Of a stretch of 64,000 nucleotides of DNA, positions 31,182-43,787 are shown piece after piece; position 1 is the first letter of the stretch, and the number at the start of each line of letters is the position of its first letter. The DNA is from Nitrospira sp. GTDB taxonomy: Bacteria; Nitrospirota; Nitrospiria; Nitrospirales; Nitrospiraceae. The notes under the pieces are model-generated. The model was not told where the DNA came from and did no database searches. It worked only from the letters and a program-made list of their open reading frames with translations. The DNA is taken from the NCBI GenBank assembly GCA_024998685.1, contig JACOEH010000022.1, forward strand, positions 1 to 64,000, written 5' to 3'. The position numbers were made by a program, and so were the translations under genes.

Positions 31182-31409
31182 ATGAAGACGCTAACAGGAA
31201 CAGTACACCAAGGACGGATTGAACTGACCGATCAGACCGAGCTGGTTGAAGGTCAGGCGGTCATCGTCCTCGTTCCCGAAAACCAGGATCCTCTTCCCGC
31301 CGAAGCCATGAAACTATTGGCACGACTCGATGCGTTCCGGCACGAAGTCGGGCCTGTCGGGTGCTCCACTCGCGATCTCGTCGGCCAAGGCAGACGCAAT
31401 GGCCAATGA
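31182..31409 (+). CDS. Antitoxin of a VapBC-type pair
   Basis: This 75-residue protein begins MKTLTGTVHQGRIELTDQTEL, a beta-rich N-terminus like that of AbrB/DUF104-type antitoxins, followed by an acidic helical tail. It overlaps the downstream PIN toxin gene by 11 bp, the common antitoxin-first order of vap operons. The family is assigned mainly by context. Confidence 0.6.
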   Translation: MKTLTGTVHQGRIELTDQTELVEGQAVIVLVPENQDPLPAEAMKLLARLDAFRHEVGPVGCSTRDLVGQGRRNGQ

Positions 31410-31827
31410 CTATGTCGTCGATGGATCGGTGGCGTTGAAGTGGCTGGTTGATGACGAGGCCGATATCCCCAGGGCCCGTACGATGCTTTCCGACATCCTC
31501 TGTGGAAATGCTCGCCTTTTCGTCCCTCCACATTATGTCAGTGAAGTTGGAAACGGCCTAATCATGGCTGCGAAGCGAAAGCGTATCGCTCCCCACAATC
31601 TCTCAGAAGCTTGGGCTGATTTTCTTTCGATTCCTCGCCTGGAGACTACATGGCATCCGCTTTTGGGCGTGAAGGCCTTCGATCTCGCCCGTGAATCATC
31701 GCTCACGTATTACGATGCAGCGTATGTGGCATTAGCGGCCTTACAGAACGCGAGCCTCATGACCGCAGATACGCAGGCCGCCGAAGCGGCCCAGCGCTTA
31801 AAAATCCATGTGACTCTCTTGAGATAG
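31399..31827 (+). CDS. vapC: VapC-type PIN-domain ribonuclease toxin
   Basis: This 142-residue toxin begins YVVDGSVALKWLVDDEAD, with the first catalytic Asp of the PIN domain (VxDxS), then EVGNGL with a Glu, and finally LTYYDAAYVALAALQNASLMTAD containing the Asp pair. PIN toxins cleave RNA, often initiator tRNA. The start lies inside the antitoxin gene. The nuclease residues are all present, so it is probably active. Confidence 0.85.
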   Translation: MANDYVVDGSVALKWLVDDEADIPRARTMLSDILCGNARLFVPPHYVSEVGNGLIMAAKRKRIAPHNLSEAWADFLSIPRLETTWHPLLGVKAFDLARESSLTYYDAAYVALAALQNASLMTADTQAAEAAQRLKIHVTLLR

Positions 31828-31848
31828 TCTTATTCCCAAGGGTGTGTC

Positions 31849-31945
31849 TCAGCGGTATTTTTCAAGACATAACCACAGAATTTCTTTCAGATTCTTTTGC
31901 AACTCATCCAAGCTTTCCCTTGTGTATGTTTTGACGACGAAACCC
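31849..31945 (-). pseudogene. HicB-like antitoxin remnant (C-terminal end)
   Basis: A leftward frame reads GFVVKTYTRESLDELQKNLKEIL and ends at TGA 31849-31851. The helix pattern is that of the C-terminal part of HicB-family antitoxins. Upstream of this the frame has no family-like sequence, and no hicA is adjacent. It is taken as a remnant. Confidence 0.4.
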
Positions 31946-31973
31946 GGCGGTGATGGTCGGACATCACCGCCGG
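31944..31973. repeat. Perfect 12-bp inverted repeat
   Basis: CCGGCGGTGATG and CATCACCGCCGG flank a 6-nt loop. It directly abuts the HicB-like remnant. Confidence 0.6.
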
Positions 31974-32325
31974 ACTCGCCGGCCCTGGTCGGGCCTCACA
32001 AGGGTGGGCTGCTGGATCAAGCGGCCCGGCCTTTCCCGACCTGGGACTTGCCGTACAGGCGTAGCAAATCCTGTGCTGTCATCGACGCACCGAAGTTTCA
32101 ATCTCTGCGCAACATAGCCTCCATGGAAATTATGGCTTTCGCGAACTCGCATCGCCAGGGGCTCCGTCGTGTCTCGACTCACCGAATAGAACAGGGTGAA
32201 TCTGAACCGATACAGGTGAATCCAATCGGATTCACACGATGCCCTACGAGCGGCAAGGAGACCGGAGATTTTTAGGTCTGTTGACCTGTGGATCAGAAGC
32301 AGGCTTCTTTGGCAGGAAGGCCTTG

Positions 32326-32457
32326 GGAATCGATGTGGCGTACCAGGCTCTTCTGTTTGAGTCTCGAACCGTCATCGGCAATCCGAATCCCACGGTGAAC
32401 GGCACCTACCAGACCACCACCCACGCCAGCTCGATGACGATGCGGATCAACTTCTAG
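32326..32457 (+). pseudogene. FadL/OmpP1-like outer membrane protein, C-terminal remnant
   Basis: The 44-codon end reads GIDVAYQALLFESRTVIG followed by NGTYQTTTH and a terminal strand MTMRINF ending in Phe. This is the C-terminal beta-strand arrangement of OmpP1/FadL-type porins, including the final aromatic residue needed for BAM recognition. The frame upstream (from 32239) is not family-like and the rest of the gene is missing, so this is a decayed fragment. Confidence 0.5.
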
Positions 32458-32558
32458 ATCCGTAAAGCCTCGCAATGTTCCACATTGTTCGCCGCTGGAA
32501 CATAGAGAGCGGTATGCATAATTTGTGACCCGACTCTACGAAGAGAAATACAATGCCG

Positions 32559-32996
32559 TCATGATGCCCCGGTTTGTCCAAGGATACGGTGGAACTCATG
32601 AGCCGTGACAATGCGCACCCCTTTATATTCGTGAAGGTCGAGAAGATCTGAGTCCCCACTGACAAGATAACCCGCACGCCCCTCCAGTGCAGCAACCAGA
32701 TATTTGTCATCATCTGGATCTTTCTCGACCACCCGGAGTTTCAAACAGCCTTCAGTGGGTTCAGCAATCAACGCGAGGGCGATGACCCAACGTTCAATCT
32801 CCTCAGTGGTCAGGGAAAGATACCGTCGAACGCGTGGATAGTTCAGACCGCGTCGCACTTCATCAAAGATTGCAGCAGACCCGACAAGATGAAACGCTTG
32901 ATCGTCTAACAAGAGACGAAGGATACGTCCCGGCAGTCCCTGCGGACGAAGGCACGCACTGATATAAATATTGGCGTCGAGGACGGCTCGAATCAC
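32559..32996 (-). CDS. PIN-domain toxin (putative VapC-like, TIGR00305 type)
   Basis: This 145-residue protein starts MIRAVLDANIYISACL with the PIN catalytic Asp, then carries FDEVRRGL (Glu), and KDPDDDKYLVAAL plus YLVSGDSDLLDL with the remaining acidic ligands. It is the 'toxin component, PIN family' type. It sits 3 bp downstream of the Phd-like antitoxin gene. Intact catalytic residues indicate an active RNase. Confidence 0.85.
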   Translation of the reverse strand: MIRAVLDANIYISACLRPQGLPGRILRLLLDDQAFHLVGSAAIFDEVRRGLNYPRVRRYLSLTTEEIERWVIALALIAEPTEGCLKLRVVEKDPDDDKYLVAALEGRAGYLVSGDSDLLDLHEYKGVRIVTAHEFHRILGQTGAS

Positions 32997-32999
32997 ACG

Positions 33000-33272
33000 T
33001 TATTTCCGAAGCGGCTTACGAGTACGATGTTTGGCTTCGTTACCAAGTTGATCGGCCTGGCTCTGAGAGATCCCGTCCGATCTCCGAGAAAGGATAGAGA
33101 GCAAGTGTGCGCGCGCGGCTTGTTGCATTTGTTCAAGTCTTTCGATCGGGACTATCGCCGCCAGGGGCTTACCTTTGCGCTCAATGACAAATTGATCATG
33201 CCGAAGCGCCACCCGATTGAGGAGATCGCCAAGCCGTTGACGGATATCAAGCGTTGACACCGTTTCAATCAT
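33000..33272 (-). CDS. Phd/YefM-type antitoxin
   Basis: This 90-residue protein begins MIETVSTLDIRQRLGDLLNRV, followed by FVIERKGKPLAAIVPIERLEQ, the classic Phd/YefM DNA-binding fold. The basic tail (KHRTRKPLRK) would bind the toxin. Start 33272 is chosen because the family begins with this Met and not at 33296. A 27-bp palindrome immediately upstream is a likely autoregulatory operator. Confidence 0.85.
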   Translation of the reverse strand: MIETVSTLDIRQRLGDLLNRVALRHDQFVIERKGKPLAAIVPIERLEQMQQAARAHLLSILSRRSDGISQSQADQLGNEAKHRTRKPLRK

Positions 33273-33296
33273 AAAACACCTCCATAAACATCTCAT

Positions 33297-33367: not shown

Positions 33368-33487
33368 GTGTCCTATACCGTTCTCCTACGGCCTGCAGCG
33401 CAACGCGACCTGGACAAACTTTCTCATCGAGATCCGATCACAAATGCCTCGCTTGACGACCATCTCAGTTTGAGATATCATGCTTCT
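33368..33487 (+). pseudogene. RelE/ParE-like N-terminal remnant fused in frame to higB
   Basis: The 40 codons before higB read SYTVLLRPAAQRDLDKL, the N-terminal strand and helix of a RelE/ParE toxin, and then degenerate. The frame continues without a stop into the HigB start (GTG 33488). It looks like the head of a lost relE gene joined to higB. Confidence 0.5.
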
Positions 33488-33775
33488 GTGCATATCATCA
33501 CGCGGAGGCGGCTGATGGACTTTTGGCGAATCCATCCCGAAGCCCGTTCCCCGTTGCAACATTGGTTTGCCGTTATGCGCAAGACCGACTATGCTTCCTT
33601 TGCCGCTCTCCGGACTACGTTTCCATCAGCGGATCAGATTGACCGGTTCACAGTCTTTAATATCGGAGGCAACGAGTTTCGGCTGATCGCAGCCATTTAC
33701 TGCAACCGGAAGAAAGTCTACGTCCGGCACGTGCTCACGCATGCGGAATACGACAGGGATAGTTGGAGGATCTAA
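33488..33775 (+). CDS. higB: HigB-type mRNA interferase toxin
   Basis: This 95-residue toxin starts VHIITRRRLMDFWRIHPEA and ends with RKKVYVRHVLTHAEYDRD, typical of HigB (RelE-superfamily ribosome-dependent mRNase). The start GTG 33488 is chosen because homologues begin with MHIITRRRL; the frame is open for 40 codons upstream. Conserved basic residues and the C-terminal Tyr/His are present. It is 3 bp from higA. Confidence 0.85.
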   Translation: MHIITRRRLMDFWRIHPEARSPLQHWFAVMRKTDYASFAALRTTFPSADQIDRFTVFNIGGNEFRLIAAIYCNRKKVYVRHVLTHAEYDRDSWRI

Positions 33776-33778
33776 CCG

Positions 33779-34249
33779 ATGCTTGCCAAATATATCCGTG
33801 AAGCTCATGCGGACTACCGCCGCATTCGCAGGCGAGTTCCGCTCGGGCCGTTGCGGACAGAGGCCGAATACCACCGAGCGGTCGCTATGCTCGATGAGAT
33901 CATCGACGAAATCGGCGAACAAGAGACTCATCCTCTGGCTGATCTGGTTGAAACCTTGGCACTTGCCATCACCGCATACGAAGAGGTTCATGTGCCGATA
34001 CCGGTCTCTTCTGGTCTCGAAATCCTTCGCGCGCTCATGGAGGACCATGGATTGTCTCAATCGGATCTTCCCGAGGTCGGCAGTCAGGGTGTCGTCTCAG
34101 AAGTTCTCTCCGGCAAGCGCGACCTGAACGTCCGTCAAATCGCTCGGCTCGCCGCGAGATTCGGGGTCTCGCCCGCGTTGTTCTTACAGATGCCTACCCT
34201 TGCGCATCACTCGTCACGAAGAAAGCAAGTTCTTATTGGGAAGAAGTGA
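33779..34249 (+). CDS. higA: HigA-type antitoxin
   Basis: This 156-residue protein has an N-terminal helical region that wraps the toxin and a C-terminal XRE helix-turn-helix: LRALMEDHGLSQSDLPEVG, followed by GVVSEVLSGKRDLNVRQIARLAARFGVSPALF (parts quoted). It neutralises HigB and represses the operon. Toxin-first order is normal for higBA. Confidence 0.88.
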   Translation: MLAKYIREAHADYRRIRRRVPLGPLRTEAEYHRAVAMLDEIIDEIGEQETHPLADLVETLALAITAYEEVHVPIPVSSGLEILRALMEDHGLSQSDLPEVGSQGVVSEVLSGKRDLNVRQIARLAARFGVSPALFLQMPTLAHHSSRRKQVLIGKK

Positions 34250-37179: not shown

Positions 37180-37316
37180 TCCGTCTCAGGCGTTGCTCCA
37201 GGTCCTCACATACAATGTGATGATCCGCTATCCCGAGGTTTTCTACAAAGCAAGCCTCTCCCCTTTTTCCGTTTCTGGGTCAGGATGCCCATGGCACCGC
37301 AGAATGCGGATAGTCG

Positions 37317-37670
37317 TCACAAGTATAGGAGTTGATTTCTGATCTCGTCGGCGGTGAAGAAATTGAGGAGTTTCATGATTCGCCTCGCGAGATCGGCATG
37401 TGAGGCGCGGCGATTCGCAATGATGATCCCTGCATGGGGTTCTTGTTTGTCCAGCGCGGCCCGGTGCAACAGTTCAAAATCGATCCGATTGTGAGTGAGG
37501 AGTGCTTGATGATGCTCTGCAGCAAACCGAAGTTGCGCCGTATCGGATAGACCCCGGTTCGATGCATCGCGGGCGGTCAAGTCATCAAACCCATGCGGAC
37601 GCAACCACTCAGCCACCAATACGGAAACATCTTCGTCGAGATAGAGGGAAATAAACAGCTTGTCGGCCAT
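37317..37670 (-). CDS. DUF5615 PIN-like toxin
   Basis: This 117-residue protein begins MADKLFISLYLDEDVSVLVAEWLR and contains FDDLTARDASNRGLSDTAQL and LLTHNRIDFELLH, the arrangement of DUF5615, a PIN-like nuclease toxin family. The catalytic acidic residues LDED and D in NRIDF are present. Its start overlaps the last base of the upstream DUF433 gene. Intact pair. Confidence 0.82.
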   Translation of the reverse strand: MADKLFISLYLDEDVSVLVAEWLRPHGFDDLTARDASNRGLSDTAQLRFAAEHHQALLTHNRIDFELLHRAALDKQEPHAGIIIANRRASHADLARRIMKLLNFFTADEIRNQLLYL

Positions 37671-37912
37671 TACCGCAGGCGGGGATCGATCGCCTCCGCA
37701 GGAATCCGATTGCGAAGAAGATCCTGGTCGATCTCGTCTCGATGGTCCTGGTAATAACTGAGCGCGTCAAAGATTTGGGCAAGCCCCAGGTGCGGCAAGT
37801 GAATAAGAATATCTTCCGGCATGACCCCAAATTTCCACATTTCCGCGATGGCTCGGACCGGCGTTCGCGTGCCTTTGATAATGGGAACTCCGCCGAGAAT
37901 GCCGCCGTCCAC
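37670..37912 (-). CDS. DUF433-family antitoxin
   Basis: This 80-residue protein shows the DUF433 pattern GGVPIIKGTRTPVRAIAEMW and YYQDHRDEIDQDLLR. These proteins have a helix-turn-helix and act as antitoxins to DUF5615 partners. Start is GTG 37912; family members usually have ITVDGG at the N-terminus, and the upstream codons read ITV in frame without an ATG, so the true start is uncertain. Confidence 0.78.
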   Translation of the reverse strand: MDGGILGGVPIIKGTRTPVRAIAEMWKFGVMPEDILIHLPHLGLAQIFDALSYYQDHRDEIDQDLLRNRIPAEAIDPRLR

Positions 37913-37944
37913 CGTGATGTGCGGAGGCCTGTGGTGAGGGTCAT

Positions 37945-38221
37945 AGCGTCGACCTCATGATGCTCAAGGTATCGAATGAATCGCGAGAAGTCAGCGGAAG
38001 CTCTATGAATTCCCCCAGGTGGGGATCGGTCGATCTGAAACGTCTCTATAGGAAACAGAAAAGGAGATATTCTACTTTTCTGTTTGATCAGACCGAGTTG
38101 ATCCGCTCACCACACTGCCAGATGGCCAGGTGAAGTTGCTGTTCTTATTTTCATAGCAGTTGCTGACACCTTTTTCTCATCCTCATCTTTAACAAATTGC
38201 GATTTCAATACAAGACCGACC
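37945..38221. other. Intergenic stretch
   Basis: No gene recognised. The sequence separates a toxin-antitoxin pair and the DUF5343-HEAT gene, both read leftward. No obvious terminator. Confidence 0.3.
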
Positions 38222-40231
38222 TTATATTTCTTTCTCCTTGTCTCGCCAGACCACAGGCCTGATACCACCGCTCCTGTTGATCTCATATCCACGGCGTTTC
38301 GCCCATGAGGCAGCTGCCTTGGCCAGCTTTTCGTGCCCGCAATTCAGGAAAGCTTCGGCTACATACTTGTCCTCAGTGCAATCAAGACCTGAGATCAGGT
38401 GCGGAACCGCAGACTCGTCCGACATCTCAATCAATGCGAATAGTGCATTCTCGATCCTGTGGGCGCGTGATTTTGACGCGCCTGACGGCGGCGTAGCATT
38501 GCCGGTGCGCACAAGAATGCGCTCGAAAAAGGTGCGGGGTCTCTCAGTTCCCAGAATCTCCCGAAGTAGAACGGCTCGCGTCTCCGGACGGGAAAGAACT
38601 GCGCTGCCCCAATTCCTCTCAGCGATCGTTAGGAAGACACTGTCGTCACCGGTCGCCGTCGCGTCGAGCTTGAGCTTCTTTAAAGCACGGGCCGCCGACG
38701 GGCCGACCGACCAATCGCGCAACGCGGCAACGAGCAAGGACGCGAGGTGCGGCGACTCCTGGCATTCCAGTGCCTCCACAGCCGCGGCCCGTAGTGCTCG
38801 CTGCGGCGATTCGACGGCCTCGCTGAGGAGCGTTAGAACGTCTGGATGTCTAGATGAGCCAAGCGCATGCACTGCAACTGCTGCTACATCAACGCGGCTG
38901 TCACAACACGCCTTGACCAAGACCTCGAAGGCCGCCTGGTTTGGATTCCGAGCCAAGGCACGCGCAGCAGCCTCCTGCTCCTTCGTTACGCGCTCAGATT
39001 GTGCTGTCTCGGCGCCATCTACATTGAAAGGTCGTAGAATCATGTTCGCGAGGAACTGACAATGAAGGTCGTCAGTCACGTAACCCAGCGCCTCGATTAG
39101 TGGTACCCTATTCTCAGTCGCGTCACTTTGGAGCAGAGTGATGAGACGCGGGATAGCGGCGTGCTTTGCACCGCGATCTGCGAGTAACTTGGCGACAAGG
39201 ACAGGCTCCACATCCAGGGTGTCCACAAGCAGATCTTGGGAGAGTTGATCCCTCATCGCTGCTAGACGTGTCACGGCCTGTTCCTGAAACTGGCTCGGCT
39301 TCATTAAGGCAGAGTTGGGAGAAGGTGTGGCAATCAACTTCCGAAAGCGTCTCACACGATCTGCATGAAGTGATTCCGAGGAACTTGGCGGTTGGGGACT
39401 CACGCCAGGACATCCAAGCCGTCCCCCACACAATCCGAAACGGTAATCTGTACCCGGCAAGCTCAGTTCGGCAGGGGTTGCTTGGGCATTTGCCATTAAG
39501 AAGAGGCCACCTGTTCGCACAGCGCCTCGCGTTGTGCGGAAGCCCGTATTCGCAACCACTGCACAGGCTGGCGCTTCCACAATCTGTTTCGCCGCCTGAA
39601 TGGCGTCTGCACTCCAGGTAGAACTGAATACAAGACGATCGTCAGTATGCACCCAAGGGCCGCGCGACGGCGGCGGTAGCTGTCCAGCCCGCACAAGCGG
39701 GAGCAAATCGTCCGAGTTAATCCAAAGCCCGACCACCTCTTTCGAGTCCTGGGAGGCAATGGCTAGCACTCCGAAATCGGAGATCGCAGGACACTGGTCT
39801 GGTGGGTCAAGAGCAGAGTCCAAGTCAAACTCAACGTCGGCAACGCCGAATCGCAGTAAGTCTGCAAACTGCCTCAATCCAACAAATGTCTTCGGCTTGT
39901 CCACAACTTGCCGCGTGTCCTTCTCGGACTTCGTTGGCGGTTCCTTGGAAAGCCTTACCAGTGTTTTGAACGTCCCTGCTATTCGCCTCGTGTCATCTGA
40001 TGAAAAGACGCGAGCGACGAGTTCATTCAGTTCTTGATGGCTTGCTTCGTGCGCCATCGCGCTGACTGCGAAAAGTGGTGCGTATGCCCTGCGAGTGCCC
40101 TCAAGAATCGCATCGCCTGCACGGGACGGATCCGTAAGGTCTCGGTAAGCCGGCGTAGGCTTGGCAGCTTCGTCGAGAAAGCCGAGTCTCTGAAGAAGGT
40201 CGATCGTCCCATAGGTGTCTCTGCTAGCCAC
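38222..40231 (-). CDS. DUF5343-like plus HEAT-repeat protein, damaged start
   Basis: This 669-residue open frame has an N-terminal region (residues about 1-100) that resembles DUF5343 (DTYGTIDLLQRLGFLDEA, PAYRDLTDPSRAG, RAYAPLFAV), a middle of unknown fold (about 110-330) and a C-terminal solenoid of HEAT/armadillo-like repeats (about 340-620; e.g. ESPQRALRAAAVEALECQE). The start codon given is GTG 40231, but the DUF5343 domain continues upstream in the same frame (LPYLHTYGVLDALFAWI, then PAYLTNVAS) to about 40337. ATG 40341 is one frame off, so a single-base deletion, or sequencing error, near the start is likely. Function unknown; it may be a scaffold protein. Confidence 0.6.
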   Translation of the reverse strand: MASRDTYGTIDLLQRLGFLDEAAKPTPAYRDLTDPSRAGDAILEGTRRAYAPLFAVSAMAHEASHQELNELVARVFSSDDTRRIAGTFKTLVRLSKEPPTKSEKDTRQVVDKPKTFVGLRQFADLLRFGVADVEFDLDSALDPPDQCPAISDFGVLAIASQDSKEVVGLWINSDDLLPLVRAGQLPPPSRGPWVHTDDRLVFSSTWSADAIQAAKQIVEAPACAVVANTGFRTTRGAVRTGGLFLMANAQATPAELSLPGTDYRFGLCGGRLGCPGVSPQPPSSSESLHADRVRRFRKLIATPSPNSALMKPSQFQEQAVTRLAAMRDQLSQDLLVDTLDVEPVLVAKLLADRGAKHAAIPRLITLLQSDATENRVPLIEALGYVTDDLHCQFLANMILRPFNVDGAETAQSERVTKEQEAAARALARNPNQAAFEVLVKACCDSRVDVAAVAVHALGSSRHPDVLTLLSEAVESPQRALRAAAVEALECQESPHLASLLVAALRDWSVGPSAARALKKLKLDATATGDDSVFLTIAERNWGSAVLSRPETRAVLLREILGTERPRTFFERILVRTGNATPPSGASKSRAHRIENALFALIEMSDESAVPHLISGLDCTEDKYVAEAFLNCGHEKLAKAAASWAKRRGYEINRSGGIRPVVWRDKEKEI

Positions 40232-40354
40232 GTTCGTAAGATATGCGGGCGTGAACGTGTCCGGAATAGGGGATGACGCAATCCAAGCAAATAGAGCGTC
40301 GAGTACGCCGTATGTGTGCAGATAGGGAAGAGCGTTGTCATGACATAGTAATGC

Positions 40355-40377
40355 TTAGGGTCAGGATTTGATATCTT
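40355..40377. repeat. 23-bp imperfect direct repeat, left copy
   Basis: It begins TTAGGGTCAG and ends ATATCTT, and matches 40887-40909 at 20 of 23 positions. The two copies lie on either side of the duplicated nuoN tail. Confidence 0.5.
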
Positions 40378-40539
40378 TACCGTTTACAACCTATCGCATC
40401 TTCGACAGGCCCGCTTCTGCGAGCTTTGCGCAGGCATCCGCCAAGTTCTTGCGCAAATCTGGACTGAAAGTTTCCCTTTGGGACGGCTGATGGCTGGCTG
40501 TGCCGGGCTGGACTTGTTGCTCACGTGATCTGCTCCCGT

Positions 40540-40878
40540 GAATAACAGTCGAGCTGGATGCTACTCCTACTTACGTACCATTGTAAAGGTGGGTGTTGGG
40601 AAGAGGAAAAATGGAATCACTCGTCATTGATTCATGGTCTCTGCACAACCACCATGACCAGGTTGTTGACAGAATCTCGGATTAACTCCATCAGTGGTCC
40701 CGGATAGACTCCTAGCAACAGAATTATCGAGGCGACGAGCCCCAGAGAGAAGACGGCCGTCCAGCCTGCCGCCTGCGTCGACTGCACGGCCCACCCTGGA
40801 GGGATGGTTGTCGGTGCCGGTTCTTCGTCGAACAGCGTCACGATCAATCGAAGATAATAGTACAAGCTGATGACACTG
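40540..40878 (-). pseudogene. nuoN: Diverged second copy of the nuoN 3' end
   Basis: This 339-bp segment aligns without gaps to 42208-42546. It includes the last about 75 codons of nuoN (YYYLRLIVTLFDEEPA to LMELIRDSV), plus 92 bp of downstream sequence. The protein sequences differ at about 13 of 75 positions. Homology stops sharply at GATGACACTG (40869-40878). It cannot encode a functional NuoN. Confidence 0.85.
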
Positions 40879-40886
40879 AGTCAAGA

Positions 40887-40909
40887 TTAGGGTCAGACTT
40901 TTATATCTT
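40887..40909. repeat. 23-bp imperfect direct repeat, right copy
   Basis: This is the partner of 40355-40377, directly after the end of the nuoN-tail copy. Confidence 0.5.
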
Positions 40910-40962
40910 GACTATCTTGGTGAACCAGTCCGCCACTACGCCGCGTGCCACCGCGCTTTGTC

Positions 40963-41220
40963 TCACAACTCATAGATCAATGTCTGGTATGGCTTCCCTT
41001 GTTTCGTCGCCATCAGTCGCAACGCAACCAAACAGGCGTGGTGACAGGCGGAAGGCGATCAAGTGCTTGGCCAGCCTGTGCCAGGCCGACCTACTCGACA
41101 CATATGTCTCAGTTGTTCGTCTGGAAACTCGGGTATATCCGAGACGTCAATCCATGAATCGGGAATATGCTTCATGCTCATTGCCACCGACTTATGCGTG
41201 GCCTTCCGCTTTCGTTTCAT
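40963..41220 (-). pseudogene. CopG/BrnA-like antitoxin, frameshifted
   Basis: The frame from ATG 41220 reads SDIPEFPDEQLRHMCRVGRP, as in BrnA/CopG-type antitoxins. After GTG it shifts frame; continuing in a second frame gives AKHLIAFRLSPRLFG, and a third frame gives LRLMATKQGKPYQTLIYEL and stop TGA (40963-40965). Thus two frameshifts break an otherwise complete ribbon-helix-helix antitoxin. The start overlaps the DUF5615 stop (ATGA). Confidence 0.65.
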
Positions 41221-41543
41221 GGTGAGAGACTCACCCAGCTGACTTGGCCTTTGACGAGCATCGACAACACGGTTTGTAGTTTCGGTGCCAACAGTCGAAG
41301 GTCCTGTAAACGGTTGGTTGGAGCCTGGAGCACGATCACGGCTATAGTGAACTGCGAAAGATTCTGCTGGAAGGAGAGATTCCGGTCAACGGTCACGAAC
41401 ACATCAAACTGTTCCTGAGCGAGCGTCAGCAGTTCACCGTTCTTGATGCCCGCCCATCCCGCTTGCGAGACGGTCACAACCTCATGCCTCGTGATCTCCT
41501 TGGCGAACCGGCGGTCAACGCACTCGTCCAGTAGAATTCTCAC
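41217..41543 (-). CDS. DUF5615 PIN-like toxin, second copy
   Basis: This 108-residue protein begins MRILLDECVDRRFAKEIT, with GELLTLAQEQFDVFVTVDRNLSFQQN and VLQAPTNRLQDL (parts quoted), matching DUF5615. The catalytic LLDEC and TVDRN segments are present. It overlaps the DUF433 partner by 4 bp and the decayed CopG/BrnA-like gene by 4 bp. It belongs to a different subtype from 37317-37670, with low mutual similarity. Confidence 0.85.
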   Translation of the reverse strand: MRILLDECVDRRFAKEITRHEVVTVSQAGWAGIKNGELLTLAQEQFDVFVTVDRNLSFQQNLSQFTIAVIVLQAPTNRLQDLRLLAPKLQTVLSMLVKGQVSWVSLSP

Positions 41544-41761
41544 GAGGCGACGGGGAACATCCGCGCTTTTGCTTCTTCCAGAAAGGCGATCACTTGCTCC
41601 CGCGTGACAGTGGGAAAACCTTCTAAGAAGTCGTCGATCGTCTCACCGCCTTCCAGGTATTCAATGAGCGTTTGTACCGGCACGCGTGTTCCCGCGAATA
41701 CTGGAGTACCGCCGAGCACTTCGGGTGATGTAGTGATGAGCGGGCGCTTGGGAGCCGACAT
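41540..41761 (-). CDS. DUF433-family antitoxin, second copy
   Basis: This 73-residue protein matches DUF433: ITTSPEVLGGTPVFAGTRVPVQTLIEYL and FPTVTREQVIAFLEEA (parts quoted). It is the canonical partner of the DUF5615 gene with which it overlaps by 4 bp (ATGA). Confidence 0.88.
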   Translation of the reverse strand: MSAPKRPLITTSPEVLGGTPVFAGTRVPVQTLIEYLEGGETIDDFLEGFPTVTREQVIAFLEEAKARMFPVAS

Positions 41762-42207
41762 TGCTGTCTCCTTCGTTGTGTCCCGCGATTCTATGCCAGC
41801 CCTCTGAACAAAGCAATTTCAAGGAGACCTTGGAGCAACAATGGGACTGTCCTCGCGCACCATGCCATATGCATTTGCGCACCACACTCTCTCAACGCTG
41901 CCTGTATATCCAGAGAGGCCCGCGCGCGAAAGATCAACGGACCCAGTCCTTTATGAGTGCCGGTGTCCCGAGGCTCAGCGCGACCTGACACCATAGGAAC
42001 GGGGGCCCACCGAGGCACGGCTGGGTAGGAAAGCGGGAACTGACTGAAGCACTATGGGGTTTGGGATATGGTGACAGGCGACGTTTCGCAACGACCTCTG
42101 TCAACGGCTCCTCGCCGTGACAATAGCGAATCGAGCCACCAAATTGAGGGTACACCTTGTTCTGTGCGTCCCAATAAGCACAGGAAGACGACGAAGGCAC
42201 ATAGCAA
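41762..42207. other. Intergenic stretch between island and nuoN tail
   Basis: No gene could be recognised. A leftward frame (41934-42200) reads CAYWDAQNKVYPQFGG and could be a small secreted-protein remnant, but has no clear start. A short hydrophobic stretch in another frame (about 42200-42260, LVGIASGSAVILAM) suggests a frame-broken signal sequence. Confidence 0.35.
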
Positions 42208-42299
42208 GAATAACAGCTGAGCCGGATGCTATTCCTACTAACGTACCGTTGTAAAGGTGGGCATTGAGAAGAGGAAAAGCGGAATCACGAGTCATTGAT

Positions 42300-43787
42300 T
42301 CATGGTCTCTGCATTCCCACCATGAGCAGGTTGCTGACAGACTCTCGGATGAGCTCCATGAGCGGTCCTGGATAGACTCCCAATAACAGGATCATCGAGG
42401 CGACGAGCCCCAGAGAGAAGACGGCCGTCCAGCCTGCCGCCTCGGTCGACTGCACGGCCCGCCCTTGAGGGGTGGTTGCTGATGCCGGCTCTTCGTCGAA
42501 CAGCGTCACGATCAGTCGAAGATAATAGTACAGGCTGATGACACTGTTCCCGATCAGCGCCAACACCAGCCACCACAGGCCGGCGTCAACACCGGCCGCG
42601 ATCGCATAAAACTTTCCAATGAATCCCGCCGTCACCGGGATGCCGGCCAGCGACAACAGGCTCAGTGTCAGCATGGCGGCGAGCCAGGGGCGCGTCCAAA
42701 ACAGTCCGCGATAGTCCTCGAAACGTTCCGCGTCCCCTCCTTCGCGTGAGTACACGGTCACCACCCCAAAGGCCCCTAAGGTCATGGCACAGTACACGAT
42801 CACATAGAAGGTCACGGCCTCCGCCGCTGCAGGACCACCAGCCAGCAGCGCCACGAGCAGATACCCGCCATGTGCAATCGAGGAATAGGCCAGGAGCCGT
42901 TTGACATTCTGTTGGAACAGGGCAAGCATGTTCCCGGTGACCATCGACACAACAGCGAGGAGACTAAACAGATGGACAAGCGAGGGTAGTTGCAATGCCC
43001 CTACATCGGTCACAAAACGGAGTAATAAGGCCACCAGCGCTCCCTTGGACACCGTAGCGATGTACGCCGTAATGGGGGCTGGGGCGCCCTGGTACACATC
43101 GGGAATCCACATATGAAACGGCGCCAGCCCGAGTTTTAATGCGACGCCGACAAAGACCAGGACAACGCCTCCTAGCCAAAGTCCCGGCACAGTCTGAACT
43201 TGTTTCATCACCATCCCCACGCCGCGAAATGTCATAGAGCCGCTTTCAAAATACAGCAGGGCCATGCCGAATAAGAGGATCGCCGAGGCGGAGATCGAAA
43301 GCAGAAGGTATTTCACCGCGGCTTCCATCGGGTGGCGTCTGGTTCGTACATACCCGATCAAACTGCACAGAGAAAGACCGAGCAGTTCGAGCCCCAGAAA
43401 AAAGGATACGAAGTGCGCGGAAACGGTCAGCACCAGCCCACCGAAGGTCGCGAGTAAGAGCAGGAGGTAATACTCCTCGATGCCTTCATGCTCACGAAAC
43501 TGGACGTTCAAATAGCGGTACGATAATCCGATCACAACCATCGCCGTGCTCAGTACGAGCCCCATGTACAACAAGGCATAGCGATCCACAATCAATAACG
43601 CCGTGACCGCTCGTGGTGATGCCGTTGCCGCCCAGGGCAGCGTCGCCAGTGTGAGCAGGCACGACATGAACGCGAAGACGGCAATCCTCGCATGGTTCCG
43701 TCTAAAGGCGATGGCGAGCATCGTGATGACGCAGAACGCTCCGAGGTCGAGAATAGGGGCAAGGGCAATAAAATCCTGGAGGATCAT
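42300..43787 (-). CDS. nuoN: NADH:quinone oxidoreductase subunit N
   Basis: This is one of the three antiporter-like proton-pumping subunits of complex I. The 495-residue product has fourteen predicted membrane helices, the conserved Lys-bearing discontinuous helix region (GLAPFHMWIPDVYQGAPAPITAYIATVSKGA; parts quoted) and the Glu in helix 5. It starts at 43787, overlapping the nuoM stop (ATGA), and is the last gene of the operon. A diverged copy of its 3' end lies at 40540-40878. Confidence 0.95.
   Translation of the reverse strand: MILQDFIALAPILDLGAFCVITMLAIAFRRNHARIAVFAFMSCLLTLATLPWAATASPRAVTALLIVDRYALLYMGLVLSTAMVVIGLSYRYLNVQFREHEGIEEYYLLLLLATFGGLVLTVSAHFVSFFLGLELLGLSLCSLIGYVRTRRHPMEAAVKYLLLSISASAILLFGMALLYFESGSMTFRGVGMVMKQVQTVPGLWLGGVVLVFVGVALKLGLAPFHMWIPDVYQGAPAPITAYIATVSKGALVALLLRFVTDVGALQLPSLVHLFSLLAVVSMVTGNMLALFQQNVKRLLAYSSIAHGGYLLVALLAGGPAAAEAVTFYVIVYCAMTLGAFGVVTVYSREGGDAERFEDYRGLFWTRPWLAAMLTLSLLSLAGIPVTAGFIGKFYAIAAGVDAGLWWLVLALIGNSVISLYYYLRLIVTLFDEEPASATTPQGRAVQSTEAAGWTAVFSLGLVASMILLLGVYPGPLMELIRESVSNLLMVGMQRP

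Follow-up and report, generated by a model that had tools for sequence, protein, structure and literature searches.

Among the known systems closest to the gene analysed here is PDC-M34, the name that PADLOC gives to a candidate system (PDC, phage defence candidate; PMC11514479) formed by a DUF5343 protein (A) and a HEPN_Swt1 protein (B). The literature searched contained no paper naming DUF5343 and no text on PDC-M34. The Pfam cut-off for DUF5343 (PF17278) is exceeded in 12 of 295 Nitrospirota genomes. Apart from the fusion described below, these matches are proteins of about 210 residues, and most of them end in a conserved tail of the SYTINLNLP..VFNAIFKSL type. The adjoining gene encodes HEPN_Swt1 in six genomes (G024, G133, G036, G063, G079 and G215) and in G448, which was added by a later search. 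DUF4145 is the partner in G029 and Hypoth_Ymh in G195 and G175 (non-Swt1 partners at L022 2109–2618, L027 816–1292 and L028 2153–2392). Anantharaman et al. 2013 (PMC3710099) count DUF4145 (PF13643) among the HEPN families. In G195, the Ymh protein matches the PADLOC profile Aga_HEPN (3.9e-9). The neighbour in G010 is short and has no Pfam match, and the copy in G099 lies at a contig end. Thus, a HEPN-family gene accompanies DUF5343 in all readable Nitrospirota cases but one.

The pair is also present on viral contigs. These surfaced only with alignment queries; when plasmids, phages and viral contigs were searched with single canonical DUF5343 sequences, nothing was returned. HEPN_Swt1 was confirmed for the B genes of contigs L107 and L112, and the other viral-contig B genes were assigned by eye, with the exception of the partner in L103. 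In L107 and L108 the pair adjoins a gene resembling an S24-type phage repressor, a position as expected of an extra gene pair that would be expressed during lysogeny. In L112 it is located behind genes resembling phage structural genes. These resemblances were judged from the sequence. As DUF5343 comes first in this tight two-gene arrangement with a HEPN RNase-like protein, it likely holds and controls the HEPN effector. With one of three kinds of HEPN-family gene next to almost all readable copies, and with the viral pairs, DUF5343 gains a role that can be tested, as the controlling half of HEPN modules.

The window (the whole stretch of DNA that was analysed, 64,000 nucleotides) lies within a 73.7-kb contig (G000:C34) of a Nitrospira sp. 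draft genome (4.83 Mb, 98.8% complete, 105 contigs). In this window an open frame joins a DUF5343 head to a middle region and a HEAT-repeat solenoid (Table 1). The frame is bounded by a TAA upstream (40355–40357) and the stop at 38222, and no in-frame ATG, GTG or TTG precedes the GTG at 40231. Residues are numbered according to the read-through protein (P0001).

Table 1. Features of the fusion gene and its surroundings (positions in the window)
Feature	Position	Strand	Description
DUF5615 PIN-like toxin	37317..37670	-	Pairs with DUF433
DUF433 antitoxin-like gene	37670..37912	-	Downstream neighbour of the fusion gene
DUF5343-middle-HEAT open frame	38222..40336	-	704 codons counted from N of NALPYL
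Helical solenoid	38294..39379	-	HEAT repeats; Pfam matches and helix pattern in a low-confidence model
HEAT_PBS	38381-38449	-	Residues 626-648; 2.2e-4; 21.9 bits (cut-off 20.9)
HEAT_2	38765-38980	-	Residues 449-520; 1.4e-12; 48.2 bits (cut-off 27.7)
Middle region	39383..39937	-	Residues about 130-314 (~180 aa); no family
DUF5343 head	39914..40336	-	All-helical, first half possibly winged-helix-like in the AF2 model; Pfam 3.2e-17; PDC-M34A 1.1e-21
GTG	40229..40231	-	Earliest in-frame start codon; its use would cost the head its 35 N-terminal residues
ATG	40339..40341	-	Where homologues start; one base off the DUF5343 frame
Copy of nuoN 3' end and following bases	40540..40839		Direct repeat, 87% identity
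DUF5615 PIN-like gene	41217..41543	-	Between the two nuoN repeats
Intact nuoN 3' end, same stretch	42208..42507		87% identical to the copy

The Pfam DUF5343 match covers residues 1–125 (63.5 bits, cut-off 27; positions 2–132 of the 140 in the profile). The whole domain is present, and the fused state is what distinguishes it from the other matches. Translation from the GTG only yields 50.8 bits and profile positions 43–132. The disputed N-terminus reads ..CHDNALPYLHTYGVLDALFAWI.. and was examined with an independent profile of 16 sequences from other DUF5343 heads, the protein being scored both complete and lacking the 35 residues upstream of the GTG. With them the score is 75.4 bits and without them 56.8 bits, a gain of 18.6 bits. 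Shuffled N-termini score at most 62.2 bits (0 of 500 reach the read-through value) and the other two reading frames 57.2 and 56.3 bits. Thus, the sequence upstream of the GTG is part of the DUF5343 domain.

An alignment-based AF2 model of the head (pLDDT 85.9, pTM 0.81) contains a helix, residues 4–21, that falls wholly inside the disputed N-terminus. Comparison with the PDB by fold or by sequence gave no significant match; the top fold match, a nickase, is weak (Z 4.8, 123 residues, 3.9 Å). Several winged helix-turn-helix chains of the GntR/MarR/VanR type match residues ~6–72, but with Z of at most 4.8 and Foldseek E of at least 0.7. The head may begin with a winged helix.

The middle region has no Pfam match. 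No homologue of it was found among 345 Nitrospirota or in GTDB contigs (two peptide-pattern scans, which reach close relatives), and the one plasmid match was at chance level and was rejected. In the solenoid, tandem HEAT motifs exceed their cut-offs, which identifies a HEAT-repeat protein. The best PDB sequence matches of this region are designed alphaRep proteins. The fusion resembles these and the two Pfam families in the repeat signature (residues 449–551 and 626–648) but not in architecture, and the repeat match is uninformative on function. PADLOC HEAT-ARM_XIII weakly matches one repeat stretch (19 bits over ~100 positions of a 1972-long profile), which is more likely due to a general similarity among HEAT repeats. 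The single-sequence AF2 model of the whole protein is poor (pLDDT 43.7); with low confidence it predicts helix pairs in residues ~316–677 and mixed strands and helices in ~185–258. No Pfam HEPN match is present inside the fusion. The sole candidate for the HEPN Rx4-6H motif, R221..H226, is located in a region with predicted strands and was discarded.

The head aligns with positions 6–150 of the 208 in PDC-M34A, but the conserved C-terminal tail is missing. Whereas PDC-M34 includes a HEPN partner, the fusion has none and carries the middle region and the solenoid instead. Its neighbours are the DUF433/DUF5615 genes and the nuoN copies, without an adjacent HEPN_Swt1 gene bearing Rx4-6H. HEPN_Swt1 was not detected in its own genome either, by a search that does recover the partners already known from G063 and G133. 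With both the tail and the partner missing, the fusion is not a member of PDC-M34 even though it shares the same head.

No full-length homologue was found in 98 relatives. The same architecture was not found in 269 genomes of the class (DUF5343 heads only, at E 1e-9), in the plasmids, phages and viral contigs searched or in GTDB contigs within the reach of two peptide-pattern scans (close relatives only); the protein has no match in PHROGs. It is the only fusion among the DUF5343 matches of the 295 sampled Nitrospirota genomes. The initial annotation had recognized a DUF5343-like head and a HEAT solenoid in an unfamiliar combination, and all three statements hold. It overlooked the uncharacterised middle region between the two parts and, with respect to domain context, the HEPN RNase-like partner that is usual elsewhere and absent here.

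The backbone of the locus, nuoN followed by DUF6573-MFS-DnaJ, is common to relatives. Between nuoN and DUF6573 the interval is nearly empty in some of them (~158 bp in G323, ~376 bp in G057 and G353). In G023 it holds a DUF433/DUF5615 pair 93% identical to 37273–38045, and in G012, G017 and G010 other toxin–antitoxin (TA) modules and transposase-like genes. The region of the fusion gene (about 38045–40540) has no match in the relatives compared. Synteny confirms the accessory island proposed from the sequence. The extra nuoN 3' end shares 91–92% identity with nuoN of G012, G010 and G030 and is nearer to these than to the resident nuoN. Together with a block (40883–41945) that is 95% identical in G012, this points to DNA exchange between related species at the site. 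The 31–42 kb stretch is rich in TA modules; apart from these, no defence genes adjoin the fusion.

We tentatively favour, at somewhat less than even confidence, a joint reading in which the ~700-residue fusion is cargo of a TA hotspot behind nuoN and a conflict or stress switch that was recently inactivated. A HEAT scaffold has been attached to the DUF5343 head, while the HEPN partner has been lost. Most likely, the solenoid would bind a trigger, either protein or nucleic acid, and the head would relay the signal, with the middle region or a partner in trans as the receiver. This reading draws on the domain matches, the 35 upstream residues that belong to the domain and contain a helix of the head model, the HEPN pairs elsewhere, the lack of HEPN_Swt1 matches in the genome, the hotspot with its near-empty sites and the rarity of frame breaks on the contig. 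Against it, there is no homologue of the same architecture by which to judge conservation, the function of DUF5343 rests on neighbours only, PDC-M34 is itself a candidate system, and TA modules are the only defence-type genes beside the fusion. The fusion may plausibly have a conflict-related role.

Alternatively, the protein is an ordinary HEAT scaffold with a borrowed helical head that has no conflict role and drifts in the hotspot. HEAT proteins are common in the genomes of relatives, the only defence neighbours are TA modules and the partner toxin is missing. The HEPN-family genes beside DUF5343 in all readable Nitrospirota cases except one argue against such a scaffold, which we regard as rather unlikely. 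The gene in the window shows that a DUF5343 head is separable from HEPN and can be joined to other parts. Quite doubtful is the more far-reaching idea that DUF5343 is a portable control module which guards HEPN RNases and, fused to a middle domain and a HEAT sensor, also forms a HEPN-free one-protein immune or stress switch. The value of the gene is limited because the one copy known may be nonfunctional and offers no counterparts from which its function could be judged by comparison.

The inactivation assumed in the favoured reading concerns the start. Canonical DUF5343 proteins have a Met a few residues ahead of a PY motif (MATTLPYLNAYG, MAGLPYVTAPG). At this place the fusion gene has two ATG codons and both are out of frame: the one at 40341 opens a frame of 104 residues without a Pfam match, and the other (40344–40346, reverse strand) is followed by a stop two codons later. 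Thus, the start is off by one base. Codon usage over the 36 disputed codons does not separate the frames (-1.30 in the DUF5343 frame, -1.37 in that of ATG 40341). The one-base offset described in the initial annotation is confirmed, as are its reading frame from the GTG (38222–40231, reverse strand, 669 residues) and the open frame upstream. Two observations named there as speaking against its reading, homologues that start at the GTG and an N-terminus that does not match DUF5343, were not made: no homologue starts at the GTG and the N-terminus matches. With its start displaced by one base, the gene as assembled probably yields no full-length protein. Most likely, a dispensable gene has recently lost its function. 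The rest of the ~700-codon frame is free of stops, which would fit a very recent lesion and also an assembly error.

An assembly or sequencing error, with an intact gene expressed from an ATG near 40341, is supported by the absence of any other lesion in the frame, by an ATG located where homologues start and by the draft state of the genome (105 contigs). This is possible but on the unlikely side, given the rarity of frame breaks along the contig. When the open reading frames of relatives were compared with the contig, 186 protein matches (at least 60% identity) were obtained at about 113 approximate loci, some of which are antisense or duplicate frames, and only one or two of these conserved loci show an apparent frame break. 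Of the two cases of frame change encountered, one is an overlap between frames and not a clear break. Indel errors are therefore rare, which favours a real lesion. A second frame break may lie at contig positions 67249–67723, where the matches to a small conserved protein of G023 fall into two frames.

It is very unlikely that the protein is made from a non-standard in-frame start or by slippage from ATG 40341. The CTG at 40321, for example, is in frame and would keep nearly the whole head, but CTG starts are rare in bacteria, homologues use standard starts, and neither a clear ribosome-binding site nor a slippery heptamer was seen by eye. Programmed frameshifting was set aside for the same lack of a heptamer. 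A true start at the GTG with a head shortened by design is hardly probable: although it is the earliest legal in-frame codon and leaves 669 residues, it removes 35 domain residues, among them the first two helices of the head model, costs the 18.6 bits of DUF5343 match and is used by no homologue.

Broken DUF5343 copies are not confined to the window, as the gene of G010 (L023, G010:C49) is likewise split into two frames. Elsewhere in the window, genes resembling PIN and VapC/antitoxin genes are found at 31330–33296. Additionally, a HigB/HigA-like pair on the forward strand (33368–34249) matches the PADLOC profiles PD-Lambda-2_A (2.1e-22) and PD-Lambda-2_B (2.3e-19, N-terminal third of the profile).
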